DNA of 35,305 bases. Origin: a virus. Positions 12,961 to 30,307 of this stretch are shown piece after piece; position 1 is the first letter of the stretch; every line of letters starts with the position of its first letter. The translations under genes and the position numbers were made by a program. The stretch covers positions 1 to 35,305 of IMG/VR virus record IMGVR_UViG_3300031251_000071; one strand, given 5' to 3'. The notes under the pieces are model-generated. The model was not told the DNA's origin, searched no databases, and saw nothing but the letters and a program-made list of their open reading frames with translations.

Positions 12961-13623
12961 ATGCCTGGCAAGATCGCCAACTCCCTCAGCCACGACCAGC
13001 TGGTCGCCCTGCTCGACGAGCTGAAGTCGTTGAGCGGCTCGCCGACCCTGGCGCAGATCCAGGGGATCGCGAAGAAGCACGGGATCACGGTCTCCCTCGA
13101 GGGTGCGAAGACTTTCCGTAATACGACCTTCAAGGCGCACCTGGAGCGTTTAGCTTCCGGCCGCGAGAAGTCGGCGCAGATCCTCGCGGCCGTCCGCGAG
13201 GGCGGGGCGCATCCCCTGGACGCGGTCGAAGAAGCCGCGGCCTCAGATCTCCTGGATCTCTACACGTCCGGCGAAGACGTCGACGTTGGCTCGGTCGTGA
13301 AGATCGCGCTGCAGCTGCGCGCCTCTCTCGAACAGCGGAAGGACCGCGACCGCAGCGACCGCGATCTCGATCGCAAGCTCGCCGACAGCGAGGCGCGCCG
13401 CGCCGACGCGGCCGAGCGGCTGCGGGTCCTCTTGGAAAAGCTCGAGCTTGCCCAGCTCGACGCCGCCCAGGCCGTGATCACTCACGCAAAGGAGCTCCGC
13501 TCAGTCACGGCCGACACGAAGCTCGACGCCCAGGAAAAGACCGAGCGCGTCCGGAAGATCCTCTTTGGCGAACGCCCGGCCGACTGGCAGCCGATCAAAC
13601 CTTCGGAGGTCACGAGCAAATGA
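12961..13623 (+). CDS. Small terminase subunit (DUF3486, Mu gp27-like)
   Basis: The product is 220 residues, the usual length for this family. The N-terminus (NSLSHDQLVALLDELKSL) precedes an HTH-like segment (TLAQIQGIAKKHGITVSLE). The long central helical region (KIALQLRASLEQRKDRDRSD) fits the oligomerising part of Mu-type small terminases. It sits directly upstream of TerL with an ATGA overlap, as in Mu. It would recognise phage DNA for headful packaging. Confidence 0.8.
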   Translation: MPGKIANSLSHDQLVALLDELKSLSGSPTLAQIQGIAKKHGITVSLEGAKTFRNTTFKAHLERLASGREKSAQILAAVREGGAHPLDAVEEAAASDLLDLYTSGEDVDVGSVVKIALQLRASLEQRKDRDRSDRDLDRKLADSEARRADAAERLRVLLEKLELAQLDAAQAVITHAKELRSVTADTKLDAQEKTERVRKILFGERPADWQPIKPSEVTSK

Positions 13624-15149: not shown

Positions 15150-15335
15150 ATGCCCACTTTCCCCAAGCCCGAAACCGCGCATTTGCCCGCCAAGGCCCCT
15201 AAGTCGTCCCGGTGGGTAGCTAGACCCCAATTCGCGCCCGGAGCCCGTTCTAGCCTATATTTAATGAAACTTAAAGGGCACCTGGAGGCAGCGCTGACGC
15301 AACCGGACCCGTCCGGAAGGGGGGAGACGGCATGA
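15150..15335 (+). CDS. Small hypothetical protein between TerL and portal
   Basis: The product is 61 residues from ATG 15150. Its stop overlaps the portal ATG (ATGA), and a strong GGGGGGAG motif for the portal lies inside it. The protein is basic and Pro-rich with no motif. Translational coupling supports it as a real leader gene, but it could be an untranslated spacer. Confidence 0.4.
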   Translation: MPTFPKPETAHLPAKAPKSSRWVARPQFAPGARSSLYLMKLKGHLEAALTQPDPSGRGETA

Positions 15336-17602
15336 GCAAGGCGAAGACACCCTTCTTTTCGGCCATGGGTAACCGGCTCGATGCCATCGTCGGTGCCTTC
15401 CGGGCCAAGGCGATCTCCCAGCTGGCACGGGCGTTCCAGACCGGATCTGACACCTATGACGGGATCGGGACCAAGTACTACCAGCCCTATGCCCAGTCGC
15501 CCTGGATCTTCTCGGGCATCAACCTGGTCTCCGGGGAATTCACGGGGCTCCCGCTCAAGTTCTATGCTGGCGCCAAAGAGTACAGCGATCCGAAGCTCGA
15601 GGCCTGGTGGGAGGCGCCGGCGCTCGGGTCCGACAAGAAGCGCCTGAACCGCAGCCAGGTCGACCAGCTGCTGGCCATGTGGCTGCAGCTCGAGGGCGAA
15701 TTCTTCATCCTCTTGGACGCGAGCTGGGCCGTGCCGTTCCCCAAGGGGGACCTGCCTCCGTTCATCATCGGCCGGCCTGACCGGGTCCGTTTGATCGTCC
15801 AGGGCGGAGACCTCCAGGGCTACGTCTGGTCCGACGCCGGCGGTCGCCAGCACGTCTTCCTGCCGGAGCAGGTGATCCATAAGCTCGAGCCGAACCCCTA
15901 CGACGACTGGCGCGGCATCGGCCGGGCGAAGATCGCCACCGTGGCCGCTGAGGGCGCGTTCCTGACCGGCAACTACATCCGCGAGCTGATGCGGAACAAC
16001 GGGGACCAGGGCTTTATCGTGATCGGGAAGAACGGCGTCGCGGACGATACCCAGCGGGCCCAGATCATCGCGGATCTCCGGGCCAAGCGCCAGGCGCTCC
16101 GGGCCGGCATGCCGAAGGACCTCTTCCTGACGGGCGACATCACCATCGATCGTCCCACTGAGCAGGCGGCCGGGGTCGATCTCACGAACACGACCTCGCT
16201 CTCCCACCAGGAGATCTACGTTTCCCTCGGGATCCCGCCGTCGATGACCGCGGTGAAGGCGGCCTATTCGATCGGCAAGGACAGCGATCGCTACCAGCTG
16301 ATCACCGGGACGAGCCAGCCGCTTTCCCGCAAGATCACCGGTGCCTACGGCGAACTCGCTTCCCGGCAGACGAGGAAGGCCCTCACGGCCGAACACTACT
16401 GGGACGATCATCCTGTCATGCAGGAAGTCCGCACCGCGCGGATCGAGACGGCCCTGAAGCTCTGGGCATCCGGCATGTCCTGGATGGACGTGAACGATTA
16501 CCTCGACCTTGGGATGGAGCCGTTCCCCGGCTGGGAGATTCCCTATCTGCCATTCTCCGTGACTCCCGTGGATCTGTCGGGCGCGAAGCCCGCCCCAGCG
16601 GATCCGGGCGAGGATCCCGCCCTCGGAGAAATGAGCCGGCGCCGGTCGGCCGATCTGCCGGAGATCGCAGCCTTGCGCCTCCTCTTCCTCACCCGTTCGC
16701 GCCAGGGGGAAGCCGCTCTGGCGATCCAGGCGAGCGCCACCCAACTCGAGGCGGAAGTCCTCGCGGGCTTCACCTGCAACTGCGGCGCCGGCGTCGTGAC
16801 CCAGAAAGCCGATCGCCCCGCGAAGGAGATCACCCTCTGGCGCCAGCAGATGGCGCAGCGCCGCGAGAGCATCCAGGCATACAAGTCAGCCTTCGGTCGG
16901 CTGCTGACCGAGATCCGGATCGAGACCCTGCGGAACATCGAAGGCGAATCCGGCAAGGCGCTCCTGGCGAAGCGTGTCGCTCCGGACCAGGCAGCGACGA
17001 AGACCGCGGCGAGCGACTTCCTCTTCGACCTGTCCAAGTTCAAGGACCGGTTCACCGCGACCATGCGGAAGCAGGGCACCGCCGCCTTGAACAAGGCCGG
17101 CGAGCAGCTCTTCTCCGAACTCGGCCGCTCGGATCCGTTCACCTTCGCGCCCCAGGAGGTCCTCTCCTTCCTCGGCGACCGCGAGAACCGGATGCGGAAT
17201 GTCCCAGAGGACGTCTTCGGTCGGATCAAGGATTCCCTCCAGGAGGGCCTTGATGCCGGCGACTCGACCACGGATCTCGCGGACCGGGTGCGGGCCGAGT
17301 TCAACAGCCTGGGGAAGGGCGAGGCCCAGCGGATCGCGCAGACGGAAGTCTCCGCGGCCTACGGCTTCGGCCGCCAGGCGGCCATGAAGAAGGCCGGAAT
17401 CAAGTTCAAGCAATGGCTGACGAGCGGCAACGCGAACGTCCGGCCCGCCCATGCCGAGGCCAACCTGCAGACGGTCCCGATCGACGAGCCCTTCATCGTC
17501 GACGGCGAGGAGCTCATGCACCCCGGCGACTCCTCGGGCTCCGCGGGGAACGTCATCAACTGCCACTGCGTGTCCCTCGCGAAGGCCGACGCCGAGTCCT
17601 GA
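15332..17602 (+). CDS. Portal protein fused to Mu F-like head morphogenesis domain
   Basis: The product is 756 residues, much longer than a typical portal. Residues about 35-420 resemble an HK97-type portal: YYQPYAQSPWIFSGINLVSG, then FPKGDLPPFIIGRPDRVRL, and GIPPSMTAVKAAYSIGKDS. Residues about 610-750 match the SPP1 gp7/Mu F family: RIAQTEVSAAYGFGRQAAM, then KQWLTSGNANVRPAHAEAN, and a closing NVINCHCVSL. Between them is a linker with a CNCG pair. In Mu, portal (gp29) and F (gp30) are separate proteins. Here both are in one chain at the head vertex. Confidence 0.88.
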   Translation: MSKAKTPFFSAMGNRLDAIVGAFRAKAISQLARAFQTGSDTYDGIGTKYYQPYAQSPWIFSGINLVSGEFTGLPLKFYAGAKEYSDPKLEAWWEAPALGSDKKRLNRSQVDQLLAMWLQLEGEFFILLDASWAVPFPKGDLPPFIIGRPDRVRLIVQGGDLQGYVWSDAGGRQHVFLPEQVIHKLEPNPYDDWRGIGRAKIATVAAEGAFLTGNYIRELMRNNGDQGFIVIGKNGVADDTQRAQIIADLRAKRQALRAGMPKDLFLTGDITIDRPTEQAAGVDLTNTTSLSHQEIYVSLGIPPSMTAVKAAYSIGKDSDRYQLITGTSQPLSRKITGAYGELASRQTRKALTAEHYWDDHPVMQEVRTARIETALKLWASGMSWMDVNDYLDLGMEPFPGWEIPYLPFSVTPVDLSGAKPAPADPGEDPALGEMSRRRSADLPEIAALRLLFLTRSRQGEAALAIQASATQLEAEVLAGFTCNCGAGVVTQKADRPAKEITLWRQQMAQRRESIQAYKSAFGRLLTEIRIETLRNIEGESGKALLAKRVAPDQAATKTAASDFLFDLSKFKDRFTATMRKQGTAALNKAGEQLFSELGRSDPFTFAPQEVLSFLGDRENRMRNVPEDVFGRIKDSLQEGLDAGDSTTDLADRVRAEFNSLGKGEAQRIAQTEVSAAYGFGRQAAMKKAGIKFKQWLTSGNANVRPAHAEANLQTVPIDEPFIVDGEELMHPGDSSGSAGNVINCHCVSLAKADAES

Positions 17603-17613
17603 TTTTCCATCCC

Positions 17614-18174
17614 ATGAAAAAACTGCTCTCCCTCCTCCTCGCGGTGCTTCTCGCGCCGCTCGTCTCGGCCGCTACCAATGGCGCCGGCGCCGGCTTGGTC
17701 GACGATTACACGACCCGCGTCGTCCTTGGCCAGGGTACGCCGATCACCTTCTACGCGACGAACGCCGCGGCCGGCACGACCACGACGGAAACGGCGATCA
17801 CGCTGACGAAGTCCGCCGGCACGGCCGCCACCTCGACCGCCGTCTCCTTTGTCGTCACGAGCGGGAAGCGCTTCCGGATCACCTCGATTACGATCGCGAC
17901 CAAGGGCCACGCGACCGGCACCGCCCAGGTCACGACCTTCAGTCTGCGGGTGAACACGGCCGGCGCCGTCACGACCTCGAGCACCCCGGTCATCTTCCAG
18001 GCCTCGAGCGCCACGGTCGCCACCTCCGGCGCCTGGGACCGCAGCCACTACTCGTTCGCCGACGGCTACGAGATCCTCGGCGACGGCACGCTCCAGATCG
18101 GGCTCACCGCCGCGGCCACGTACACGACGAACGCCCCGACCTGGTACGCCGTTATCACCGGCTACGAATACTGA
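17614..18174 (+). CDS. Secreted-type Thr/Ala-rich protein in the head module
   Basis: The product is 186 residues. The first 19 residues are a classic signal peptide (MKKLLSLLLAVLLAPLVSA). The rest is rich in Thr, Ala and Val and beta-strand-like (NAAAGTTTTETAITLTKSAG; VTSGKRFRITSITIATKG), similar in style to a surface or decoration protein. It lies between the portal fusion and the prohead protease, which suggests a head-associated role. The ATG follows TGATTTTCCATCCC, with no Shine-Dalgarno. No family is recognised. Confidence 0.7.
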   Translation: MKKLLSLLLAVLLAPLVSAATNGAGAGLVDDYTTRVVLGQGTPITFYATNAAAGTTTTETAITLTKSAGTAATSTAVSFVVTSGKRFRITSITIATKGHATGTAQVTTFSLRVNTAGAVTTSSTPVIFQASSATVATSGAWDRSHYSFADGYEILGDGTLQIGLTAAATYTTNAPTWYAVITGYEY

Positions 18175-18180
18175 TTTCCC

Positions 18181-18906
18181 ATGCACGCGAACCTCCTCTC
18201 CCTCCTCGCCAAGCACAAGCTCACCGGCCCGGTCCGCCGCGAGATCTCCGTCGAGCCGAAGGTGCTCGACGCCAAGAAAGGCATCGTCCGCTACTGCGCG
18301 AGCGACGAGAGCCTCGACTGGCACGGGGAGATCGTCCGCGTGAACGGCTGGCGCTTCGACTACTTTGCGAAGAACGCGCCCTTCGTGAACAGCCACGACT
18401 ACGGCGACATCCGCCAGCTGCTCGGCCAGGTCGTGAACTTTTCGATCCAGGGTCCGGAGCTGATCGAGGACGTGCAATACGCGCTCACCGAGACCGGCGA
18501 CTGCCTAGCCGACTGGGCTTTCAAGATGGCGCGTGACGGGTTCCTCAAGGCCGTCTCGGTCGGCTTTGTCCCAGTCTCCATGTGCTCGAAGTGGGACGGC
18601 GACACGAAGGACTTCCTCGCCCAGATCGCCGAGCTTGGCCTCGACGCCGCCACGGCCGCTAAGCTCCGCGCCGTCTACCGCGAGCAGCAGCAGATCGAGC
18701 TCTCGCAGTGCATCCTCGGGGCGAACCCGAACGCCCTGGCGAAGGCCTACCGCGCCGGAACCCTCACGGAGGAAGACCTCCAGAAATTTTGCGCCATGCA
18801 GGACAGCCTCGAAATCGACAACCCGGCCGATCACTCCGCGCCCGCCGGGACGTCTTCCGCGCGGACGAAGCTCGCCCTCCTGGCGCAGATCCAAGCCCTG
18901 CTCTAA
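18181..18906 (+). CDS. Prohead maturation protease (HK97 gp4/U35-like)
   Basis: The product is 241 residues. Catalytic-looking His72 lies in FVNSHDYGD, and Ser126 lies in FLKAVSVGFVP, the order and spacing of the U35 (S78) proteases. A later IELSQCILGANPNAL segment matches the conserved ExS...NPxA region of this family. It directly precedes the major capsid gene, as in HK97. It would remove the delta domain of the capsid protein during maturation, and so may also remove that protein's signal-like N-terminus. Confidence 0.85.
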   Translation: MHANLLSLLAKHKLTGPVRREISVEPKVLDAKKGIVRYCASDESLDWHGEIVRVNGWRFDYFAKNAPFVNSHDYGDIRQLLGQVVNFSIQGPELIEDVQYALTETGDCLADWAFKMARDGFLKAVSVGFVPVSMCSKWDGDTKDFLAQIAELGLDAATAAKLRAVYREQQQIELSQCILGANPNALAKAYRAGTLTEEDLQKFCAMQDSLEIDNPADHSAPAGTSSARTKLALLAQIQALL

Positions 18907-18913
18907 ATCCAAA

Positions 18914-20407
18914 ATGAAAATTGTCTCTACGCTCCTCGCGTTCTTCGCGGGCCTGTTTGCCGGGATTCCCCTGGTGAACCCGCCCGCCGTCAAGGCCGAC
19001 CGGATCCCGGTCAGCTCGTCCACCGTCTACTTCGAAAACTTCTTCCTGAGCGTCGGCCGGCACCTGGCCGTCGGCCTCCTGAGGATCGAGCTCGCGATCG
19101 ACCGCATGTTCGGTGCGCGGATGCCTGTCCTTGGCTTGGGCGTTGCGCCCGGCCTGGACGAGCAGATCCAGAAGTCGCTCGAGGCTCTCAACGGTCGCCT
19201 CGGCAAACTCGATGAGGTCGAAAAGGCCGTCGCCGCCAACAAGGCCGATGTCGATCAGGTCACCAAGGCCATCAACGAGGTGAAGCTCTCCCTCGATGAG
19301 TCGCGTCGCATGCAGCTTGAGTTCAAGTCGGCCTACCGGGCTCCGGCTCGCGCCGATGGTTCTCCGGCCGACATCAGTGACGAGTGCGCCAAGTTCCTTG
19401 GCTCGCTCACCCTGTGCTCCGCGATCCGCCAGGGTGGCTCGTTCATCGAGGCGGAGAAGCTCAAGAACTTCATGGGCATCGTCGAGCGGAACCTCGGGCC
19501 CGTCGCCAAGTCGGCCCTGACGACTTCCGACATCCCGCTCCCGGTCCAGTATGCCGCGGAAGTGGTCGAGCTCGTCTACGCCTACGGCATCGCCCGCAAG
19601 GTCGGCACCGTGTTCCCGCTGGGTGCGGCCACGGTCAAGCTGCCGAAGCTCGGCACCGACACCGACTGGGGCCTGATCGCCATGAGCGGTACGGTCACCG
19701 AAGTCAGCCCGAGCTTTGCCTGGGTGACGTTCACCGCGGAAAAGTTCGGCGGCCTGATCCGTCTCCCGACGGAACTGGACGAGGACTCCGTCGTCGCGGT
19801 GGGCAAGTTCGTCGCCCGCTACGCCGCCCGCAAGATCGCCAAGGTGGAGGACTACCAGTTCTTCCGCTCGACCGGCGCTGCCAGCGGCGTCAACGGTACG
19901 GCCGAAGGCCTGACCAAGAACGTCGTGACGGACACGATGTTCTACTACAACGGCAACAGCTCGACCTCGGGCAAGACCAAGCAGACGGACGCGACCCTGG
20001 CCGACTTCCGTGGCCTGCGCGGGACGCCGAACGGCGCCGTGCTCGGTAATGCCGCCTACTACATGCACCCGACGTATGAGGCGCTGCTCGTGAGCTTCAA
20101 CACGTCGGCGACGGTCACGCCGTATCTGCGCGGCACCGCCGGTTCCCCCGCGACCCTGGATGGTTTCCCGATCATCTGGGTGCCTGTCCTGCCCGCGCTC
20201 TCCTCGACCGCGAGCGCGAGCCTCGTGCATGCGCTCTTCGGCGATGCGAGCTTCATGTATCTCGCGCCCCGAAACGGTATCCGCTTCGACACCTCGAAGG
20301 ACGCCGCGTTCACGACCGACGAAATCCTGATCCGCGGCATCGAGCGCCTCACGGTGGGCAAGATGGCGACGGACCCGGTGGCCGGTCTCCGGAACGCCGC
20401 CAGCTGA
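18914..20407 (+). CDS. HK97-fold major capsid protein with signal-like N-terminus
   Basis: The product is 497 residues. Residues 1-28 look like a Sec signal or membrane anchor (MKIVSTLLAFFAGLFAGIPL, then VKA). Residues about 80-137 form a coiled coil like the HK97 delta (scaffold) domain (QIQKSLEALNGRLGKLDEVE). From about 150 on the protein reads as HK97 capsid: PLPVQYAAEVVELVYAYG, FPLGAATVKLPKLGTDTDW, GGLIRLPTELDEDSV, then DFRGLRGTPNGAVL. An upstream protease and a downstream terminator fit. The alternative that translation starts later, inside the delta region, is possible, but no better start is seen near the upstream stop. Confidence 0.88.
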   Translation: MKIVSTLLAFFAGLFAGIPLVNPPAVKADRIPVSSSTVYFENFFLSVGRHLAVGLLRIELAIDRMFGARMPVLGLGVAPGLDEQIQKSLEALNGRLGKLDEVEKAVAANKADVDQVTKAINEVKLSLDESRRMQLEFKSAYRAPARADGSPADISDECAKFLGSLTLCSAIRQGGSFIEAEKLKNFMGIVERNLGPVAKSALTTSDIPLPVQYAAEVVELVYAYGIARKVGTVFPLGAATVKLPKLGTDTDWGLIAMSGTVTEVSPSFAWVTFTAEKFGGLIRLPTELDEDSVVAVGKFVARYAARKIAKVEDYQFFRSTGAASGVNGTAEGLTKNVVTDTMFYYNGNSSTSGKTKQTDATLADFRGLRGTPNGAVLGNAAYYMHPTYEALLVSFNTSATVTPYLRGTAGSPATLDGFPIIWVPVLPALSSTASASLVHALFGDASFMYLAPRNGIRFDTSKDAAFTTDEILIRGIERLTVGKMATDPVAGLRNAAS

Positions 20408-20422
20408 ACGAGTCTTCTGCGA

Positions 20423-20452
20423 GGTCCTCCGCCACGGGGCGGAGGGCCTTTT
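20423..20452 (+). terminator. Intrinsic terminator after the major capsid gene
   Basis: An 11-bp stem (GGTCCTCCGCC with GGCGGAGGGCC, one G-U) with loop ACGG is followed by TTTT. It lies 16 bp after the capsid stop. As late genes continue downstream, it probably gives partial termination and raises capsid mRNA relative to tail mRNA. Confidence 0.85.
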
Positions 20453-20463
20453 AGAATCCTCCC

Positions 20464-20517
20464 ATGATCAAGAAACCAATCGTCAAGCGCCCGATCCCCA
20501 CAATCCGCACCAAGTAG
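20464..20517 (+). CDS. Possible 17-residue basic micro-ORF
   Basis: It reads MIKKPIVKRPIPTIRTK and a TAG stop. The leader AGAATCCTCCC before the ATG is like that of other late genes in this phage. It lies between the capsid terminator and the connector gene. It may be a leader peptide or chance; only the leader and position support it. Confidence 0.3.
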   Translation: MIKKPIVKRPIPTIRTK

Positions 20518-20535
20518 CCAGGATACTTTTCCGCC

Positions 20536-21432
20536 ATGAACCTCACCCTCGGGACTCTCGAAGAGCTGAAGATCCACCTGCTGAACGAATCGATGCGCAG
20601 CGCGGACACCTTCGACGCCACGATCGCAGCGATCGGCCGCGGCGTCGCCGCGCGCTTCGAGCAGTACTGCATGCGGAAGTTTCTGCGGACCGTGAACGAT
20701 ACTTTCGAATGCACCGCCGATCGCATGCATGTTTCGCTCCCGCGATACCCGCTCGACGCGGCCCCGACGATCGAGTTGCGCGATGCACTTTCGACGGGCT
20801 ACGTCGCCCAAGTCTACAACGACCTGGTCGTCGATCACGACCTGACGGCCGGACTCATCAAGTTTGCCGCATTCCCTGGTCCCTATTGGTCCCGCCTCCG
20901 GTTTACCTACACGGGCGGCTACTGGTTCAGCGACACGGCCGGGGACAACGGCACGCCCCAGTCCGTCCAGGAGGGCTTCATCACCCTTGTGATCAACGAC
21001 GAGACGGTCGCCATCACCTTCGATTCCGAATACACCTCTCCGCCCGTCGTCACTCCGACCGTCGTATTGCCGGACGCGAACGGGAGCGCCATCTCGGCGA
21101 CGCCCTACGCGATCACGACGACCGGCTGTTTGGTGAAGCTCGGCGCCGCGATCCCAGCCTCTGGCTACCAGCTGTCCTGGGTCGCGACGGGCTCGGTCCC
21201 TGGCGTGGCGACGCCGGCCGACCTGCCGACCGGCGCCACGGCCCGGCCGGACGACCTGTATCTCGCCTGGCTCCTGCAGTGCGAGCGGATCTGGGCCGTT
21301 CGCGACAACCTCGGGATCAACATCGCCGGCGAGAAGTCGGTGACCTTCGTCTCCTCAACCCTCGCCGCCTTGGAACTCGTGCCCGAGGTGAAGAACAAGA
21401 TCGACGGCTATCGCCGCTACGCCCTGACATGA
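20536..21432 (+). CDS. Head-tail connector (gp6-like adaptor)
   Basis: The product is 298 residues. The N-terminal 120 residues resemble gp6-type adaptors: a start with LEELKIHLLNESMRS, the helix DATIAAIGRGVAARFEQYCM, and RYPLDAAPTIELRD. A beta-rich insertion follows at about 145-235 (VINDETVAITFDSEYTSPPV), then a C-terminal helix segment with DDLYLAWLLQCERIWAVRDN. The place just after the capsid gene is usual for the connector that caps the portal. The insertion makes it longer than a minimal adaptor. Confidence 0.75.
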   Translation: MNLTLGTLEELKIHLLNESMRSADTFDATIAAIGRGVAARFEQYCMRKFLRTVNDTFECTADRMHVSLPRYPLDAAPTIELRDALSTGYVAQVYNDLVVDHDLTAGLIKFAAFPGPYWSRLRFTYTGGYWFSDTAGDNGTPQSVQEGFITLVINDETVAITFDSEYTSPPVVTPTVVLPDANGSAISATPYAITTTGCLVKLGAAIPASGYQLSWVATGSVPGVATPADLPTGATARPDDLYLAWLLQCERIWAVRDNLGINIAGEKSVTFVSSTLAALELVPEVKNKIDGYRRYALT

Positions 21433-21992
21433 CCGAGCTCGTCCTCACTGACAACGCGGCCGCGGTCCTGCGGCAGATCAGCACCATGCCCGAGCGCATG
21501 GGCCGGGGGATCGCGCAGGCCTTCGACCAGCAGAACCTGCTCACGATCGCCTATGCCCAGCAGCACAAGCTCTCCGGCCCGCGGCCCGCGGTCCTTGGCG
21601 TCGTCACAAACCGCCTCCGCCTTTCCCTGAATGCGAGCCCGGCTGTCGTCGAGGGCAACACCATCACTTCCGCGATCGGGACCAATGTCCGCTACGCCGG
21701 CGTCCACGAGCGCGGCTTCGAGGGGGACGTCCAGGTCGATGGGTACACCCGGAGGATCTTGAACAAGACGGCCTCCCGCTACACCTTCGACATGGCCACG
21801 GGCCGGACGACGAAGTCGAAGCGGAAGATCCGCGCTGTCTTGGGCCAGGTCACAGTCCGCCCGTTCACGCGGCACATGAACGTGCCGGCCCGGCCGTATC
21901 TCTCCTCGTCGATCGCCGAGCGGCACTACGACTACGGCTTTGCCATCTCGAAGGCGATCGTCACCGCCTGGAAAGAGGGAGGCTCGTCATGA
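21429..21992 (+). CDS. Head-tail joining/virion morphogenesis protein (gpG/gp10-like)
   Basis: The product is 187 residues; the ATG overlaps the upstream TGA (ATGA). It shows AAVLRQISTMPERMGRGIAQ, a VRYAGVHERGFEG segment and a closing PARPYLSSSIAERHYDYGFA. YAxVHExG and the RPYL motif are typical of the HK97 gp10 and Mu gpG virion morphogenesis proteins, which join head and tail. The long middle is basic (GRTTKSKRKIRA). Confidence 0.8.
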   Translation: MTELVLTDNAAAVLRQISTMPERMGRGIAQAFDQQNLLTIAYAQQHKLSGPRPAVLGVVTNRLRLSLNASPAVVEGNTITSAIGTNVRYAGVHERGFEGDVQVDGYTRRILNKTASRYTFDMATGRTTKSKRKIRAVLGQVTVRPFTRHMNVPARPYLSSSIAERHYDYGFAISKAIVTAWKEGGSS

Positions 21993-22696
21993 CCTACATC
22001 CCTTCCCAGATGGAGCGCCTGCAGCTCGACTGCGTCGGCCGCCTCGAGGCGGAATACTACTTCAACGACATCGGCGTCTTTGTCCTGCGGCCGCGCGAGA
22101 ACGACGGCTTCACCCAGATCCAGTCGCGGATCGACCAGCTGGTCGGCGGCCTGGTGAAGAAGAACGGCAAGAGCGGCGCGGCCATCTATGCCCTCATGCC
22201 GACGGCGGATGCGACCGACCTCGATGCGCCGGGCCCGCGCCTGGACAACGCCATCACCTTCCGCTGCCAGGAGCTCCCGGTCGTCAACATGGGGCCGAAC
22301 GGCACGCTCAAGAGCTGCGAGGAGATCGCGATCCGGGTCCTGCAGGTTCTCCACCATTTCAATCCGGGGAAGGGCAATGTCCTCTATGCCGCGCCGGACG
22401 TCTGGACCCCGAGCGCCGCGGCGGATCCCAAGGTCACGATCGACATCAAGCTCATGCAGAAGAGCGGACTCCCGTACTACCAGAAGTGCGCGCCGGTCAC
22501 GATCGCGGCGGCCGGTCTCCTCGTGACGCTCACCTGCGCGACCCCGAGTTCGATCATCCGCTACTCGATCGACGACTCCTACCCGACGCTCACCTACACG
22601 GCGCCCTTCACGCTGCCGGCGGCCGCCACCGTGCGCGCGGCCGCGCACACGACCGACCTGCAGCAGTCCGACCTCCGCGAACTTTCCGTTTCGTAA
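21989..22696 (+). CDS. Tail completion-type protein with chitobiase C-terminal domain
   Basis: The product is 235 residues with GAGGGAGG upstream. The N-terminal 160 residues look like a tail terminator-type protein of siphoviruses (RIDQLVGGLVKKNGKSGAAI; SCEEIAIRVLQVLHHFNPGK). The C-terminal 65 residues (about 168-225) match the chitobiase/beta-hexosaminidase C-terminal fold: APVTIAAAGLLVTLTCATPS, then IIRYSIDDSYPTLTYTAPFT and LPAAATVRAAAH. This domain is common on secreted carbohydrate-active or surface proteins. Its fusion to a tail completion-type protein would put a decoration domain at the neck. Confidence 0.7.
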   Translation: MTYIPSQMERLQLDCVGRLEAEYYFNDIGVFVLRPRENDGFTQIQSRIDQLVGGLVKKNGKSGAAIYALMPTADATDLDAPGPRLDNAITFRCQELPVVNMGPNGTLKSCEEIAIRVLQVLHHFNPGKGNVLYAAPDVWTPSAAADPKVTIDIKLMQKSGLPYYQKCAPVTIAAAGLLVTLTCATPSSIIRYSIDDSYPTLTYTAPFTLPAAATVRAAAHTTDLQQSDLRELSVS

Positions 22697-22715
22697 ACAC
22701 AAACCCGCTCCCGTC

Positions 22716-23906
22716 ATGCCTACTCCCATCAATCCCGCACTCGTGATCGCCGGTCCGGCGTATGTCTTTACCCGGAACAAGGCTTTTTATTCCAAGGGCA
22801 ACGTCGTCGTCTCGCCCAAGATCGAAACCTTCGGCATCGAGCTCGCCGCCTATGGCTCGATCGAGGACCGCGAGAGCAACGCCTCGCTCGAGGTGAAGTT
22901 CACGCCGGTCGGCCGGCTCGACGCCCTCTCGGTCCTCTGGCCCTACGGCATCGTTAGTCCCGGCGAACTCGTCCACGCCGTGGCCCAGATCGTCTCGGTC
23001 GATACCGCGACCGAGATCATTACGTTCAACAGCCTGGCGCGATTCCGTGACGGCGCCCCGATCGTGACGGCCACCCTGGGCACGCTCCCGACCGGTCTCT
23101 CCGCCGGACTCTATTACCTGCACAAGCTCTCGGCGACCACGGGCACCCTGCACACGAGCGAGGCGAATGCCCTCGCCGGCACGAGCGCCGTGAACCTCAC
23201 GGCCTCCGGCACCGGGATCTCGCGGATCATCGAGCAGGAATACCTGAAGATCATCACCCTCACCGGTGACCAGTACATGTTTCACAACACGGCTGTTGTC
23301 GCCTCGCCGGACTTCAACGGTTCGGCCGCCTCCACCGCGATCGGCGAGGTCACCTTTGAGGCCTTCCGGAAGTTCGGCACCGCGCCGACGAACGCCAATT
23401 CGTTCTTCACGAAATCGACCGGCACTACCCTGGACACCTCGTTCGATCCTTCGAACATTGTCACGCAGGCCTACTCGTTGGCCTGGGGTGCAAGCCTGCC
23501 GTGGAGCGCCCTCAGCACCAGGGCCGGCATCAAGGCGACCTTCCCCCTGAGCGTCGAGGCGATCGGCGACGACGCCAGCGGCCTCTCCACCCGGAGGATC
23601 AATTCCGCGGACGCTGCCTTCTCCTGCACGCCGATTGGCGTCACCGAGGACGACGTCTACACGAAGCTCGTCCTCCAGGACACCGGCGCCGGCCGCGGCC
23701 GCCGCCTGACGAGCACGGACAACCTGCTCCTCTCCGACGGCTCGTCGGTCTACCTCCAGCTCTACGGCGCCGTCCTGCAGCCGGGCTCGTTCAACTACGA
23801 CAAGGCCCTGGACCGCGTCGGCGAACTCACCTGGAAGCCGACCCGCACGTTCGCCTCCGGTGTCGCCAAGGCCCTTTACTACGTCGGCGGCACGACTCCC
23901 CCGTGA
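22716..23906 (+). CDS. Major tail tube protein (siphovirus type)
   Basis: The product is 396 residues. It is beta-rich with tube-like features: SPKIETFGIELAAYGSIEDR, VKFTPVGRLDALSVLWPYG, an insertion at about 90-165, then a C-terminal half with SSVYLQLYGAVLQPGSFNYD and GELTWKPTRTFASG. It sits after the tail completion gene in the place of the tube protein. No sheath gene is present, so the tail is likely non-contractile. The central insertion (HKLSATTGTLHTSEANALAG) resembles an exposed domain. Confidence 0.65.
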   Translation: MPTPINPALVIAGPAYVFTRNKAFYSKGNVVVSPKIETFGIELAAYGSIEDRESNASLEVKFTPVGRLDALSVLWPYGIVSPGELVHAVAQIVSVDTATEIITFNSLARFRDGAPIVTATLGTLPTGLSAGLYYLHKLSATTGTLHTSEANALAGTSAVNLTASGTGISRIIEQEYLKIITLTGDQYMFHNTAVVASPDFNGSAASTAIGEVTFEAFRKFGTAPTNANSFFTKSTGTTLDTSFDPSNIVTQAYSLAWGASLPWSALSTRAGIKATFPLSVEAIGDDASGLSTRRINSADAAFSCTPIGVTEDDVYTKLVLQDTGAGRGRRLTSTDNLLLSDGSSVYLQLYGAVLQPGSFNYDKALDRVGELTWKPTRTFASGVAKALYYVGGTTPP

Positions 23907-24319
23907 GCTACGCCCTCGAGACGACCTACGATGGGGTCCTCCTCGCGTCTCCCGATCCGGCCCTCGGCCGGATCGGGCCGTTCGGCATTACGCTCAACGG
24001 TCAGCAGGTCGTCGACGAGCAGGCGCTCTTTCGCGCCGTCCAGTCCTCCTTCCTCGGCCGCGGCGGCCAGGCGACGGAGTTCAAGTTTCGGGTCAACGCG
24101 CAGTTTTCCACGCTGCGCCAGGCCTTCGAGTTCATGTTCACCCACCAGAGCGATCTGTCGGCGAACGGCGATTTGACGATCACGACCGGCCCGACCGGCG
24201 ACACCTCGACCGTCAAGCTCGCGAACGCCGCCTATGCCTCGGTCGCGATCGTCGAGGTGAAGGGCATCTCGATCGTCCTCGAATACACCTTCCGCGGCGG
24301 CCTCTTCGCGATCGTCTGA
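23903..24319 (+). CDS. Small tail-associated protein
   Basis: The GTG at 23903 overlaps the tail tube stop (GTGA), giving 138 residues. The sequence includes LGRIGPFGITLNGQQVVDEQ, TEFKFRVNAQFSTLRQAFEF and VAIVEVKGISIVLEYTFRGG. It is a single soluble beta/alpha domain with no signal peptide. Coupling to the tube gene suggests a tail structural or assembly role. No family is recognised. Confidence 0.6.
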   Translation: MSYALETTYDGVLLASPDPALGRIGPFGITLNGQQVVDEQALFRAVQSSFLGRGGQATEFKFRVNAQFSTLRQAFEFMFTHQSDLSANGDLTITTGPTGDTSTVKLANAAYASVAIVEVKGISIVLEYTFRGGLFAIV

Positions 24320-24327
24320 TTCCTCCC

Positions 24328-27300
24328 ATGAAGTTTAAAGCCATCCTCCTCGGTCTCGCGATCATGCTCCTGGCCGGCGCCGCCCGCGCCCAAGGCCTCT
24401 TCGGCGACCTGACCGTGCAGCGCACGATCACCCTCCAGGGTGCCTTAAGACCGGCTCAAATCACCGCTAACCAGGACGACTATAGCCCGACCGACCTGAA
24501 CAAGGCCGCGCGGCTTTACCTCTCGACGAACGCGACCCGGACGCTGTCTGGCCTGCTCGCCCAGGTCGACGGCCGGCGGATCGTGCTTACGAATAGCGGG
24601 CTCTTCAGCCTGGTCCTGGCAAACGAGAGCAGCTCGAGCGCGGCCGCTAATCGCTTTGCCTTGGGCTCAAGCTTGACGATCACCGCGGGATCCAGTGTCG
24701 AATTGATCTACGACGGCACCGCGGCCCGCTGGCGGCCGGCCGGTGGCGCTGGGTCGGGTGGCGGGAGCGGATCCGGCGACATGCTCGCCGCAAACAATCT
24801 TTCCGACCTCACCGATTTCTCCTTGGCCCGGTCAAACCTCGGCCTCGCAATTGGGAGCAACGTCCAGGCTTACAACTCGACACTGGCCGCGATCGCCGCC
24901 GGCACCTGGACGGGATCGACGAGTCTCACGACTCTCGGCACGATTGCGGCTGGCACCTGGCAGGGAACGCCCATTTCGACGGCCTATATCGCGGATGGTT
25001 CAGTCACCCTAGCCAAGATGGCCAACATGGCCACGGCTTCGATCCTGGGCCGAAATACGGCCGGCACCGGGGCTCCTGAGGTCCTCTCAGCCTCGACGAC
25101 AAAGTCGCTCCTCTCGCTCAACAACGTCGAGAACACGGCCCTCTCGACTTGGGCCGGCACGACCAACGTCACGACGCTCGGCACGATCGCGACCGGCACT
25201 TGGAGCGGGACGGCGATTGCGGCGAACAAAGGCGGCACCGGCCAGACTAGCTACACGATTGGCGACCTATTATACGCTTCGAGCAGCTCGGCCCTGTCAA
25301 AGCTCGCGGCCGTAGCGGTTGGCCAGGTCCTGGTAAGCGGTGGCACCGGTACGGCGCCAGCTTGGTCGGCGACTCCGACGCTGACCTCCATCACGTCGCC
25401 GGCCTCGACTTCTCTGACTCTTGCGACGCTCGACACCAATCAGAATATCATTCTAGACCCACACGGTACGGGATTCACGAGCAGTGACAGCCCGATCGTC
25501 CTGACAGATAACACTAGCTACCGAACCTGGCAGGGTCCTTCCGGAGTCTCGGGTCGCGCCGGTGTGTATACGCAAAAGGAAGCGGCGAGCTCGGCCATAT
25601 ATGTCTTGGGCATCGGGACCGCAGGAACCATCAATGCGAGCTATTTAGGGTATCAGGCGAGCGGATCATTTGCTGCGATGACTGCAACCAGTTCTGGGGC
25701 CAATCTCGTTGGACTGGCTGGAAACTCCTTCGGCGGGACAACCTGGGTAAATACGGCAGGCATGACCGTTAATACAACCGAGGTGCATTCTGAATCTGCG
25801 CGCGGCACCCAGATCTACTTTCGGACGACGCCCAACGGTTCGACGACAGCTGCAATTGTTGGATACTGGAGCAACCAAGGTAACCTCCTCGTCGGTACTT
25901 CGTCGGACAGCGGACTCACAGGTGCTGGAGGCTTTAAAGTCGCTTCGACGACGGCCAGCACGAGCACGACCACCGGCTCTGGCATCTTTGCGGGAGGCAT
26001 TGCCGTTGCAGGTAATTCTTATTTTGGAGGAACTCTGAACGCATACGGGCAGCTGGTTTTAGGAGTCAGCGCGACGACGCTCGGTTCGCTCAAGCTCTTC
26101 GGCAACACGTCCGGCGATGCGACGATTCAACCCGCCGCGGTGGCTGGAACCTCGACCATCGTCACCCTGCCGAACGCTAGCAGCACGCTCCCGATCTTCG
26201 GCCAGCAGATCACCTTCACCGGTCCCACTGCGGCGCGCTCGATTGCGCTGCCTGACGCTTCTTTCACAGTCGCGCGCACCGATGCGGCCAACACCTTCAC
26301 GGGCGCGAGCACGGCGACCTCCTGGACCATGACGACGCCGGTGATCGCCGGCGGCCTTACTGCCTCGGGTTCGGGCGCAAATAACTTCGCCGGATCGACC
26401 GGTACATTTATCACGTCGACCGGCGCGAACACGCTTTCTGGCGCGGTGACGGTCAACGATGCGACGACGCCCTCGATCACGCTCGCGAGCGGCAAGACGA
26501 ACACCGGATTCTTTCTCGTCAACGGCAAGACCTCAGGCGGACTTAAGCTGATCGCGGCCGACGCCGCGGCGCAGACTGTGACCGTGAGCCTCGCCGCGCA
26601 AACGACCGGCGCCAGCACGCAGACGATTCCCGACATGGCGGGAAGCTCCGACACGTTCGTCTTTCTCGCCAAGGCCCAGACGCTGACGAACAAGACGCTC
26701 ACCAGCCCGACGCTCACGACCCCCGCCCTCGGCACGCCCGCGAGCGGCGTGGTCACGAATTTGACCGGAACGGCGTCGATCAATATCAACGGTACGGTCG
26801 GAGCAACCACGCCGATGACGGTCGCCGCCACGACCCTCAGCGCGAGCGGTCTCACTCAACTTCGCACGTCGTCCGGGTATGCTGCTTATATTGGCCGAAG
26901 CGGGACCGATGATCTTCTGGCATTAGCTGGGGGCGCTGCTACGAACGGCTCGTCGATCCTCTCTCTTGATAGCACGGCGACAACGTACCGACCATTTATC
27001 CTCGATGGATCGGCCGTCAGCATTCGCCAGAGCGGAACCAATGTCGGAGTGTTTTCTTCTACCGGCCTCGCGGTGACGGGGGGATTGAGCGCTACGAGCA
27101 GCTCTTGGATCGGGGCCTCGGGTGGCGCCCTCCGCACCTATAACCTGGACATCAACGGCGTCGGGACGAACGACGGAGTCTCCCTGGGCCTGCGGAAAAA
27201 GGGCACGGGGTATTCGACGATCCGGATGTCCACCGTCGGGGATGCGGCTGGCTGGGACATCAACTACAATTTCCCGTCTTCAAATGTTCTGGGATTCTAC

Positions 27301-27933
27301 GACATCGGGAGTACCACCACGATCCTCACCCTGAGCTCTACCGGCCTCGCCGTGACGGGCAACATGGGCGCATCTCGTTCGGGGATCTACGGTCCAAGCC
27401 TGAATCTAACTTCCTCGGATACCGGGGCTCGGTCCTGGTCTTTCACATCATCTGGAACTGGAGATTTGGGAAGCGTCGCGGGCAGATTGAACGTCGTCGA
27501 CGTAACTGGATCGGCCGTCATCGCGTATTTTAACACCGGGGGCCTCGCGGTCGCCGGCACACTCACCGCCGGCTCTAGCGTGATCCAGATCACGACGGCC
27601 GCGGGTTACCTCAAGCCGAACGCGGTGCCTGGCGCCTCCGCCCTCACCGAATCCGCGGGGGCGACGACGATCGACTGCGCGCTGAGCAACGTCTTCACCC
27701 TGACCCTCAATGCGAACCTGGCGACGGTGACCTTCTCGAACTTCGCCGACGGGCAGACGATCATCGTCCACGTCCTGAACACCGCCAGCAACTACACCGT
27801 CACCTGGGGAAATTCGATCAAGTGGGCGACCGCGACCCAGCCGACCCAGACGGTCGGCGCGAAGACCGACACCTGGACCTTCGTGAAGGCCGGCAGCACG
27901 ATCTATGGCGCCGTCGTCCAGAACCAGTCATGA
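24328..27933 (+). CDS. Long repetitive tail fibre-like protein with signal peptide
   Basis: The product is 1201 residues. Residues 1-21 are a signal peptide (MKFKAILLGLAIMLLAGAAR, then A and Gln). A Gly/Ser linker (GSGGGSGSG) lies near residue 145. Fibre-type repeats follow: TTLGTIAAGTWQGT (about 200) and TTLGTIATGTWSGT (about 280), GGTGQTSYTIGDLLYASSSS, and four G-L/I-AV-T/A-G repeats (about 560, 911, 1005, 1071). The C-terminus is a compact beta domain. No S74 chaperone is seen. Base composition changes in blocks, for example more AT-rich at about 25430-26050. It is probably the host-recognition fibre. The leader TGATTCCTCCC lacks a Shine-Dalgarno. Confidence 0.75.
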   Translation: MKFKAILLGLAIMLLAGAARAQGLFGDLTVQRTITLQGALRPAQITANQDDYSPTDLNKAARLYLSTNATRTLSGLLAQVDGRRIVLTNSGLFSLVLANESSSSAAANRFALGSSLTITAGSSVELIYDGTAARWRPAGGAGSGGGSGSGDMLAANNLSDLTDFSLARSNLGLAIGSNVQAYNSTLAAIAAGTWTGSTSLTTLGTIAAGTWQGTPISTAYIADGSVTLAKMANMATASILGRNTAGTGAPEVLSASTTKSLLSLNNVENTALSTWAGTTNVTTLGTIATGTWSGTAIAANKGGTGQTSYTIGDLLYASSSSALSKLAAVAVGQVLVSGGTGTAPAWSATPTLTSITSPASTSLTLATLDTNQNIILDPHGTGFTSSDSPIVLTDNTSYRTWQGPSGVSGRAGVYTQKEAASSAIYVLGIGTAGTINASYLGYQASGSFAAMTATSSGANLVGLAGNSFGGTTWVNTAGMTVNTTEVHSESARGTQIYFRTTPNGSTTAAIVGYWSNQGNLLVGTSSDSGLTGAGGFKVASTTASTSTTTGSGIFAGGIAVAGNSYFGGTLNAYGQLVLGVSATTLGSLKLFGNTSGDATIQPAAVAGTSTIVTLPNASSTLPIFGQQITFTGPTAARSIALPDASFTVARTDAANTFTGASTATSWTMTTPVIAGGLTASGSGANNFAGSTGTFITSTGANTLSGAVTVNDATTPSITLASGKTNTGFFLVNGKTSGGLKLIAADAAAQTVTVSLAAQTTGASTQTIPDMAGSSDTFVFLAKAQTLTNKTLTSPTLTTPALGTPASGVVTNLTGTASININGTVGATTPMTVAATTLSASGLTQLRTSSGYAAYIGRSGTDDLLALAGGAATNGSSILSLDSTATTYRPFILDGSAVSIRQSGTNVGVFSSTGLAVTGGLSATSSSWIGASGGALRTYNLDINGVGTNDGVSLGLRKKGTGYSTIRMSTVGDAAGWDINYNFPSSNVLGFYDIGSTTTILTLSSTGLAVTGNMGASRSGIYGPSLNLTSSDTGARSWSFTSSGTGDLGSVAGRLNVVDVTGSAVIAYFNTGGLAVAGTLTAGSSVIQITTAAGYLKPNAVPGASALTESAGATTIDCALSNVFTLTLNANLATVTFSNFADGQTIIVHVLNTASNYTVTWGNSIKWATATQPTQTVGAKTDTWTFVKAGSTIYGAVVQNQS

Positions 27934-28655
27934 GACGCCTCGGCATGATTCTCCTGGGGCTCGCGCTCCTGCAGGTGGCGGCGATCGCTCCGATCTCGTT
28001 CCTCAATGCGCCGACGGCGGGCGGGGGCGACATTACCACTAGTCTCGTGGCATGGTACAAAATGGACGAAAATACAGGGACATCCACCACCGCCGATTCT
28101 TCCGGGAACAGCCTGACTGCCACCTTAAACAATAGCCCCTCCTGGACTACCGCTCAGATCGGCGTGTCGGCCCTCAGCTTCAACGGGAGCAATCAATATC
28201 TCACGATTTCGGGCACGACGACGCTGAAACCGTCGACTTTTACGATCGCCGCATGGGTTAAGGATTCCGGATCGATTCCGACGCCGACTGCGAGGTGGAT
28301 CGTTTCGCTAAATCAAAACGACGTGCGGCTGATCATGGCAGATAGTGGCGATGGCCACATCGCCTCTGAAATTTACAACGGTTCGGGATTTACGACATTA
28401 GCTGCGGGGACGTTGAACGTAGGAGCCTGGAACCACGTCGTGGTCACCTATGACGGCAGCACTCAGAAGATCTATTTGAACGGCACTCTTTCCGCCAGCG
28501 GCTCAGCGACACTTTCGTGGGAATCAACGGCTTCGTCGAGCATCGGCGCGACCCAAGGCGGAAGCCTGCTTTGGAACGGAAAACTAGACGATGTTCGAAT
28601 CTACAGCCGGCCTCTCTCTCAAACCGATATCGATACTCTTTATGCGTACAGATAA
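27930..28655 (+). CDS. LamG/concanavalin-like lectin domain protein with signal sequence
   Basis: The product is 241 residues. Residues 1-30 are a signal or anchor (MRRLGMILLGLALLQVAAIA). From about 38 on it matches the LamG_3 fold: SLVAWYKMDENTGTSTTADS, GVSALSFNGSNQYLTISG, FTIAAWVKD, WNHVVVTYDGSTQKIYLNG, and KLDDVRIYSRPLSQTDIDTL. Such domains bind glycans. The ATG overlaps the fibre stop (ATGA), and the gene is more AT-rich than its neighbours, which suggests recent exchange. It is probably an adhesin working with the fibre. Confidence 0.85.
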   Translation: MRRLGMILLGLALLQVAAIAPISFLNAPTAGGGDITTSLVAWYKMDENTGTSTTADSSGNSLTATLNNSPSWTTAQIGVSALSFNGSNQYLTISGTTTLKPSTFTIAAWVKDSGSIPTPTARWIVSLNQNDVRLIMADSGDGHIASEIYNGSGFTTLAAGTLNVGAWNHVVVTYDGSTQKIYLNGTLSASGSATLSWESTASSSIGATQGGSLLWNGKLDDVRIYSRPLSQTDIDTLYAYR

Positions 28656-29142
28656 TCCCATTAAGAACCTCCTCCGCGCCCTTTCGATCGTCGCGTGCCT
28701 CTGCGCGCTCGTCGCCGCCGCCATTGCCCAGGACGCTTTCGTCGCCGAGCCGCTCGGCAAGGCCGTCAGCAAGAAGCTCGTGATCACGCGGCTCTATGGT
28801 GAGCCCGCGGCCGATGGCTCGACCTCGCTGACCGCGACGCTCGGCACGCGCCTGGTCACGGCCGACGGTGAAATCGGCACCGCTCCTGGCGGGACCTCCG
28901 TCTCGATCCGCCTCGAGGCCTCCGGCAAGACGACGATCGTCCTCGCCGATGGCACCAAGATCACCGACGGCCAGATCCTCGAGGCCCTCGGGATCCTGAT
29001 CGCCCAGGCGAAAGGCGACCAGGATGTCGCCGTCGCCGAGGCGCAGGCCGCTCGCGCTGCCGAGGTCCAGGCGGCCGCGGCCAAGCTCGAGGCGATCAAA
29101 CCCGCGCCGGCTCCCGTGCAAGCAGTCCCGCCCGGATCCTGA
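28642..29142 (+). CDS. Signal-anchor protein with Ala-rich tail
   Basis: The preferred ATG is 28642 (166 residues), overlapping the LamG gene by 14 bp. Residues 8-30 are hydrophobic (LLRALSIVACLCALVAAAIA) and end AIAQ, so it is a signal peptide or anchor. The middle is beta-rich (LTATLGTRLVTADGEIG; GTSVSIRLEASGKTTIVLAD). The C-terminal 40 residues are an Ala/Glu helix and a Pro-rich end. The function is unknown; it belongs to the fibre cluster. Confidence 0.65.
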   Translation: MRTDNPIKNLLRALSIVACLCALVAAAIAQDAFVAEPLGKAVSKKLVITRLYGEPAADGSTSLTATLGTRLVTADGEIGTAPGGTSVSIRLEASGKTTIVLADGTKITDGQILEALGILIAQAKGDQDVAVAEAQAARAAEVQAAAAKLEAIKPAPAPVQAVPPGS

Positions 29143-29145
29143 GCC

Positions 29146-29265
29146 ATGAGCACAGGCCATGTCGTCCTCATCGTGATCGGCACGATCGTCGGCCTCGTCG
29201 CTGGCGCCGCGCTGCTCCTATGGACATTCGGCAAGATCGTCGAATCCATGTGGGGTAGAAAGTAG
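29146..29265 (+). CDS. 39-residue single-TM protein
   Basis: It starts four bases after the previous stop and encodes one TM helix (VVLIVIGTIVGLVAGAALLL) with a short basic C-terminus ending WGRK. The Gly/Val periodicity is typical of small oligomeric membrane peptides. It could be a small holin-type or assembly peptide; neither is shown. Confidence 0.6.
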   Translation: MSTGHVVLIVIGTIVGLVAGAALLLWTFGKIVESMWGRK

Positions 29266-29279
29266 GACCGGAAAGACCC

Positions 29280-29852
29280 ATGAATCCCGACGGCACCCAG
29301 GATCGGAACCTCGTCACCTTTGTCGGCCCGCGCGACAACGGGGCCCGCGTGGACATGTCCGGCGTGACGGTCTCGGCCGCGCTCGCCTACACGGCGGCCG
29401 TCAAGTGCACGACCCAGCTGCAGGACCTCGAGGCGAACTTCGGGACCGTCGTCGCCGGCAGCGAGAACGCCGCCGACATCAATGACCGCTCGCGGGTCAA
29501 GCTCACCGCCGAGCGGTGGATCCTGACGGGCAGCAAGTACGGTTTCACGGTCAAGGGCATGAGCTCCGCCGAGCTCGTCGGCCTGGTCGAAGGTTCCGGT
29601 CGGGAGTGCGACGTCGACTATGGCAACTACAGCGACCAGTTCCCGCGGGGCAAGGCCTCGGGGAAGTTGAATCTCTGGCGCGAGGATCGCGTGACTCCGA
29701 TCCGGGTCCGCTGCCTCCAGGCCGACGCCCCCGAGCTCGTCCCTGGCTCTGGCCCCTACGTCTTTTTGGCCCCGAACCCCGCCGCCTGGTACCACGATCT
29801 CTTCATCGAGTACTTCCTCTTCATGCGCCGCAACCGGCTGGCGTTCGTCTGA
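29280..29852 (+). CDS. Hypothetical tail-module protein
   Basis: The product is 190 residues with GGAAAG a few bases before the ATG. It is soluble, with segments NLVTFVGPRDNGARVDMSG, KLTAERWILTGSKYGFTVK and YGNYSDQFPRGKASGKLNLW, and ends with an aromatic helix (WYHDLFIEYFLFMRRNRLAF). There is no signal peptide. It lies two genes before the tape measure. A minor tail or assembly role is possible; no family is recognised. Confidence 0.65.
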   Translation: MNPDGTQDRNLVTFVGPRDNGARVDMSGVTVSAALAYTAAVKCTTQLQDLEANFGTVVAGSENAADINDRSRVKLTAERWILTGSKYGFTVKGMSSAELVGLVEGSGRECDVDYGNYSDQFPRGKASGKLNLWREDRVTPIRVRCLQADAPELVPGSGPYVFLAPNPAAWYHDLFIEYFLFMRRNRLAFV

Positions 29853-29860
29853 CTTTTCCC

Positions 29861-30307
29861 ATGAAAACCCACCGCATCCTACTCCTCGCCGCCGGGCTCT
29901 TTGCCCTGGCGTTTTCCGCCCGCGCCGAAACCGTCAAGCTCACCCGCTCCGATGCGGCCGAGCTCTACATCGCGATCGCCTCCACGGAGGCCGGCCTGTC
30001 GCCGGCGAACACCGTGGCGGCCGCCGACAACCTGAATGCCCTCCGCCCCTACGTGGAGGCCCTGGACAAGGGCCGTGCGGCCGCGCAGCGCGCCGCCCGT
30101 AAGCTCGGCCTGGCCAAGCCCGTGCCGGCCGACCTCGAGGACCAGATCCAGCGCCTGAGCGACGACCTCGAGGCCAAGGTCATGAAGGAGGAGATTTCCG
30201 TCGACCTCGCCCCGATCGCGCTCTCCGACGACGAGATCAAGGAGGCGAAGATCAAGCCCACCGTCCTCGCGCAGTTCCGCCGCTGGCTCAAGGCCGCCAA
30301 GAAATAG
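29861..30307 (+). CDS. Helical protein with signal peptide, in the tail-chaperone position
   Basis: The product is 148 residues. Residues 1-22 are a signal peptide (MKTHRILLLAAGLFALAFSA, then RA). The rest is helical and charged (SDAAELYIAIASTEAGLSPA; LEDQIQRLSDDLEAKVMKEE). In siphoviruses the gene before the tape measure is normally a cytoplasmic tail assembly chaperone, so a signal peptide here is unexpected. The leader TGACTTTTCCC precedes the ATG. No frameshift-type slippery site is evident at its end. Confidence 0.65.
   Translation: MKTHRILLLAAGLFALAFSARAETVKLTRSDAAELYIAIASTEAGLSPANTVAAADNLNALRPYVEALDKGRAAAQRAARKLGLAKPVPADLEDQIQRLSDDLEAKVMKEEISVDLAPIALSDDEIKEAKIKPTVLAQFRRWLKAAKK

Follow-up and report, generated by a model that had tools for sequence, protein, structure and literature searches.

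In a group of Mu-like tailed phages, capsid, cement and tail-fibre proteins have repeatedly gained N-terminal leaders of the membrane-anchor or export type, a pattern suggesting that part of the particle is built at the cell membrane. Two kinds of module can be recognised, both apparently real and selected, i.e., anchors on the head proteins and Sec signals on the fibre, the LamG protein and the products of genes 17614, 28642 and 29861 (genes are named by their first nucleotide); judged from sequence, this main reading is given a probability of about one half. By the textbook account the capsids and fibres of tailed phages assemble in the cytoplasm, and a sequence-only reading of the DNA had claimed that no tailed phage with such a pattern had been described. 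The open-access literature, which omits most subscription journals, gave no counter-example: no tailed phage with a signal-bearing capsid or signal-bearing fibres was found in it.

The phage and its relatives

The window, i.e., the whole 35.3-kb stretch of DNA that was analysed (an IMG/VR record), is by its gene content a Mu-like transposable tailed phage of the B3 type. Besides the transposase it encodes a MuB-type ATPase (phrog_296, E 9e-8; PF09077, the MuB C-terminal domain, at 22 bits against a cut-off of 25), and the terminase, portal/Mu F-like and capsid families listed below (PF03237, PF17289, PF04860, PF04233, PF05065) were all matched above cut-off. The terminase has 30% identity with its counterpart in Pseudomonas phage B3, and the window shares with B3, StopSmel, vB_RhkS_P1 and Lsp-JY19 the order of Mu-type terminase, portal/Mu F, protease and capsid. 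The genes that matter here are the following.

5760 to 7763, minus strand: MuA-type transposase (phrog_310, E 1e-25), which marks the phage type
11158 to 11595, plus strand: predicted late-region membrane or exported protein with a signal-like N-terminus (weak phrog_9685)
13620 to 15143, plus strand: large terminase (PF03237, PF17289) with a basic/hydrophobic N-terminal extension (residues ~1-38)
15332 to 17602, plus strand: portal fused to a Mu F-like domain (PF04860, PF04233), without leader, an internal control
17614 to 18174, plus strand: small beta-rich protein of 186 aa, predicted Sec signal MKKLLSLLLAVLLAPLVSA/A
18181 to 18906, plus strand: probable prohead protease (phrog_617, E 4e-10), without leader
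18914 to 20407, plus strand: major capsid protein (PF05065, E 6e-23)
22716 to 23906, plus strand: probable tail tube (by position), without leader, a further internal control
24328 to 27933, plus strand: tail fibre, predicted Sec signal MKFKAILLGLAIMLLAGAARA/Q
27930 to 28655, plus strand: LamG/ConA-like protein (PF13385, E 1e-30), signal-like N-terminus without a clear A-x-A site
28642 to 29142, plus strand: 166-aa protein of no family, signal AAAIA/Q
29861 to 30307, plus strand: 148-aa protein directly before the putative tape-measure gene, signal FSARA/E

The position of the probable protease matches that of the "capsid maturation protease" of StopSmel, and a family search with the tail tube candidate gave no match. 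Two other genes deserve mention: an early one on the minus strand (2326-2766) encodes a DPBB/RlpA-like protein with a signal peptide, and the product of 21989-22696 has at its C-terminus a CHB_HEX_C_1/Fn3-associated domain (PF13290, E 3e-8), which is unusual for the head-tail connector region.

The close relatives, found by a terminase search and a capsid alignment search, are metagenomic viral contigs only; scans for close relatives that used the capsid or the portal protein of the window as query returned none. Repeat-like peptides and PEP-CTERM proteins adjoining some of the relatives faintly hint at a Verrucomicrobia-like host. Verrucophage P8625, a siphophage whose host phylum is possibly similar, differs from the window phage in that its authors predicted a signal peptide in no protein (PMC4642752).

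The hydrophobic N-termini are coding

The sequence-only reading had assigned signal-peptide-like N-termini to six proteins (17614, 18914, 24328, 27930, 28642 and 29861), and all six were found at the starts it gave and are coding. Of the three forward frames only the annotated one has positive codon log-odds in each segment, both others being negative (+20.5 versus -28.7 and -12.0 for the capsid leader), third-position GC is high, and the six starts lie 7-12 nt past the preceding stop or overlap it, as does the ATG of 27930 with the stop of the fibre gene. Directly before the ATG of 17614, 18181, 20536, 24328, 29861 and 11158 there is a TTTTCC-like pyrimidine-rich leader and no obvious Shine-Dalgarno sequence.

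Leaders were called with a simple hydropathy-based rule calibrated on E. coli K-12 proteins, of which it called 13/13 exported, 1/34 listed-cytosolic (PlsB) and 7/13 membrane proteins; it thus detects Sec signals and N-terminal membrane segments and cannot tell a signal from an anchor. The rule calls six of the 19 window late genes of at least 100 aa (13620, 17614, 18914, 24328, 28642 and 29861), and 27930 is absent from these calls only because the gene caller placed its start at 27945; from the upstream start (MRRLGMILLGLALLQVAAIAPISFLNA) it is signal-like and would be the seventh. Beyond the six proteins first noticed, the large terminase and 11158 have signal-like N-termini as well. In four proteins the predicted Sec/SPase I signal is of the textbook kind, with a basic n-region, an h-region of 10-18 residues and an A-x-A-like c-region (17614 LVSA/A, 24328 ARA/Q, 28642 AIA/Q, 29861 SARA/E; the slash marks the predicted cleavage).

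That the leaders are an artefact, either of wrong start codons or of the chance hydrophobicity of an Ala/Leu/Val-rich proteome, might be argued from the high G+C and from the fact that some homologues begin downstream. It is contradicted by the codon statistics of the leaders and their tight spacing to the preceding gene, by the internal protein windows, only 0.7-1.6% of which pass a closely similar rule, and by two results described below, the specificity of leaders for protein roles and the excess of dS over dN within them; this explanation is hardly credible and was rejected.

Leaders as a trait of the lineage

Clade A was defined as the terminase relatives at 48% identity or more, and the controls were the relatives at 30-36% together with the classical B3-like phages (B3, StopSmel, vB_RhkS_P1 and Lsp-JY19); only late genes of at least 100 aa were counted. 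Signal-like N-termini were called in 71 of 469 late genes in clade A versus 5/181 (2.8%) in the distant relatives and 5/93 (5.4%) in the classical B3-like phages, and in the downstream parts of 20 clade A genomes a further 30 of 156 late genes are signal-like. Compared with the pooled controls (10/274), the odds ratio for clade A is 4.7, with a p value of 3e-7 that serves as a guide only, since late genes are not independent of each other. The pattern is a trait of the phage lineage, and in 32 of 37 phages a hydrophobic N-terminus is present on one or more of three proteins, the capsid protein and its two neighbours. The B3-like phages differ from the window in this respect and also in their terminases, which are without the extension: terminase-spanning matches to the classical phages start at residue 33-44 of the window protein.

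Leaders are also specific to role, clustering on capsid, cement and fibre/tailspike proteins. Hydrophobic N-termini occur in type-1 capsids (6/7), type-2 capsids (5/30), cement proteins (PF09956; 15/22), terminases (7/46) and the small protein encoded after the capsid gene (4/4), versus 0/41 small terminases, 0/24 tail tubes, 0/7 proteases and 1/37 and 2/9 portals; in the adaptor they are rare or absent. One gene after the capsid gene (L020:16513-17019) opens with a type IV pseudopilin-like start (KKSGFTPVQIMVLIAIIGLL) followed by an A-x-A site, like a captured host leader. A type-2 major capsid protein (L015:16432-17907) has an N-terminal extension of ~195 residues that itself opens with a classical signal, MPAQA/A.

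The capsid leader and the cement anchors

The window capsid protein consists of a hydrophobic leader (residues ~1-27), a conserved amphipathic segment (~38-66), a delta-like coil (~80-200) and the HK97 domain (209-479). A profile search gave 80 capsid loci, from which 69 complete and distinct proteins were kept; 33 of these are signal-like, three more have an N-terminal membrane-type segment, and about half start downstream. The homologues do not, therefore, consistently begin beyond the hydrophobic segment, the outcome that the sequence-only reading had named as telling against it, and with half of them bearing it and half not, the leader is best described as an optional added module. On a tree built from the HK97 domain alone, where 37 of the 69 count as leader-bearing by the tree's own rule (a slightly different set, which includes the window), at least 14 gains or losses are needed, nine of them forced by well-supported branches, so that the leader has been repeatedly gained or lost.

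A charge-free hydrophobic run is present in 38 leaders. In 18 of them it spans 34-42 residues, with a basic flank on the N-terminal side in 18/18 and on the C-terminal side in 15/18, and often with Pro or Gly in mid-run. Unlike cleavable signals, these long leaders look like helical hairpins with both ends predicted to be cytoplasmic. The window leader, in contrast to the many homologues spanning 34-42 residues, has a single charge-free run of 24 residues, a possible VKA/D site and then the amphipathic segment; it is the least classical of the six, and a variant rather than a clean hairpin.

The leader of the window is homologous to that of the relative L190, and the amphipathic segment is conserved there too (dN 0.38, dS 1.49 over capsid residues 35-70), while the hydrophobic stretch is under weak constraint (dN 0.63, dS 0.77, 31 codons). 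Where capsid relatives bear a leader, it has changed far more quickly than the shell domain, e.g., between the window and L002, where 10/33 leader residues are identical versus 229/342 in the HK97 domain. An AlphaFold model of the window capsid (pLDDT 38) was set aside.

The anchors of the cement proteins are mostly of membrane length, i.e., segments of 18-27 residues with oriented charge, and the basic flank is mostly on the domain side (N-out/C-in in 11 versus two in reverse), from which the cement domains are predicted to be cytoplasmic.

The hydrophobic segments of capsid and cement might alternatively be assembly elements that never enter a membrane, forming a scaffold core within the prohead until the prohead protease removes them. 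That the capsid leader precedes a delta-like coiled region, and that leaders are freely replaced while their hydrophobicity is retained, would fit such a role, yet charge-free spans of 34-42 residues with basic flanks and charge-oriented cement segments of 18-27 residues are features of membrane insertion, and cement proteins are expected outside the shell; the scaffold-core explanation is regarded as distinctly unlikely. 

The sequence-only reading had proposed that virions are assembled either on the inner membrane or across it. The flanks of the capsid hairpins and the charge of the cement anchors both imply cytoplasmic domains, which favours the first half of this proposal, assembly on the membrane, and speaks against the second, export across it. 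The extreme form of the latter, in which whole virions or all shell proteins are exported by Sec and assembled in the periplasm, would explain why capsid, terminase and fibre all have signal-like N-termini, and has a precedent of sorts in the anammox encapsulin, for which assembly in an organelle was proposed. It leaves the portal, protease, adaptor, tail tube and small terminase without signals, however, DNA packaging requires ATP and DNA, and the capsid and cement domains are predicted from their charge patterns to be cytoplasmic. Export of the whole virion is thus very improbable and was rejected on the unsignalled proteins and the charge patterns.

Probably exported fibres, tailspikes and small beta-proteins

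Most of the 20 extended genomes encode between one and four proteins with a signal in the slot that precedes the tape-measure gene, and representatives of the slot match alpha-galactosidase (Melibiase_2), an SGNH esterase family, a tail-fibre family and LamG. A putative tailspike at L085:765-3656, for instance, combines a signal peptide with an alpha-galactosidase (Melibiase_2) domain, and in L021 a LamG protein with a signal occupies the same slot as 27930 in the window. Over residues ~36-136 the window fibre matches the annotated tail fibre of a Bradyrhizobium phage.

The small protein 17614 has a homologue adjoining the capsid gene in L190 (L190:3491, the gene after it), which retains the signal; its domain also occurs at 57-69% identity in L191, L192 and L193, inside proteins without a signal, L190 being the closer relative. 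The fold model of 17614, of modest confidence (pLDDT 54), has beta-strands from residue 75; searched with the model, BFVD gave a single uncharacterised phage protein at 57% identity, and the PDB no significant fold match. A search for relatives of 29861 returned none.

From their classical cleavable Sec signals, the fibres, tailspikes and small beta-proteins are probably exported, and in the window the classical or near-classical signals of the fibre, the LamG protein and the small beta-protein are better explained by export than by anchoring. A rival explanation starts from the same signals and takes 17614, 24328, 27930, 28642 and 29861 for secreted or envelope proteins (glycan-degrading enzymes, adhesins or superinfection exclusion factors) that are encoded in the late operon and are not virion parts, so that only the capsid leader would need a virion explanation. 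The enzyme and lectin domains (alpha-galactosidase, SGNH esterase, LamG) suit it, as do the patchy presence of the small genes and the lack of relatives of 29861. Against it, a signal-bearing protein of fibre/tailspike type recurs directly before the tape-measure gene in most relatives, the fibre domains match annotated tail fibres, and the 17614 domain is found in proteins of other phages that have no signal; the non-virion explanation is considered somewhat unlikely.

A possible assembly pathway

If the head leaders are anchors, as their charge and hydropathy suggest, those on the capsid (in the window), on the cement protein (in sister phages) and, more weakly, on the terminase would keep the prohead attached to the inner membrane, on its cytoplasmic side, while the prohead grows, with a topology predicted by the positive-inside rule. 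The sequence-only reading had also considered removal of the segments by the prohead protease, which is plausible for the capsid because its leader sits ahead of the delta-like region; protease 18181 would probably cut the two away together and so release the head. An awkward point is that, should the delta domain be located within the prohead as it is in HK97, an anchor attached to it would face inward and fit poorly with tethering from outside. The fibre 24328, the LamG protein 27930, 17614, 28642 and 29861 would be exported by Sec to the periplasm, where fibres and tailspikes would fold, and they would then be added to virions at the time of lysis or later, or would act on envelope glycans. 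The virion would thus be assembled in two compartments, from heads held on the inner membrane by hairpin or single-pass anchors that are removed at maturation, and from fibres and tailspikes delivered through Sec, the two meeting in the periplasm or at lysis. This pathway is put forward tentatively, as possible rather than probable; if true, it would be one so far undescribed for tailed phages.

Relation to known systems

T4 is the classic case of tailed-phage head assembly at the cytoplasmic face of the inner membrane, and the window phage is likened to it for a membrane-docked prohead, which in the latter is predicted from charge and hydropathy. The T4 prohead is tethered through the portal gp20 and gp40 and is not known to use hydrophobic capsid leaders, and T4 fibres are not known to be exported. 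The nearest precedent found for a leader on the shell protein itself is the encapsulin of anammox Planctomycetes, likewise an HK97-fold protein with an N-terminal Sec-like signal, for which translocation before shell assembly was proposed (PMC8346489). It is, however, a cellular nanocompartment and not a phage, whereas in these phages many leaders look cytoplasm-facing and the fibres are signalled too.

The repeated gain and loss of a leader on one capsid fold, together with Sec-signalled fibres, makes this a lineage in which membrane-coupled or split-compartment assembly can be put to a direct test, with leader-bearing and leaderless capsid homologues as ready-made controls, and it bears on the membrane targeting of HK97-fold shells of the kind proposed for the anammox encapsulin. 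Isolated signal-bearing cases exist outside the clade as well, as two proteins of the Sinorhizobium phage StopSmel (L104) demonstrate: a signal-like protein encoded between protease and capsid (6292-6783) and a 931-aa tail protein (16255-19050).
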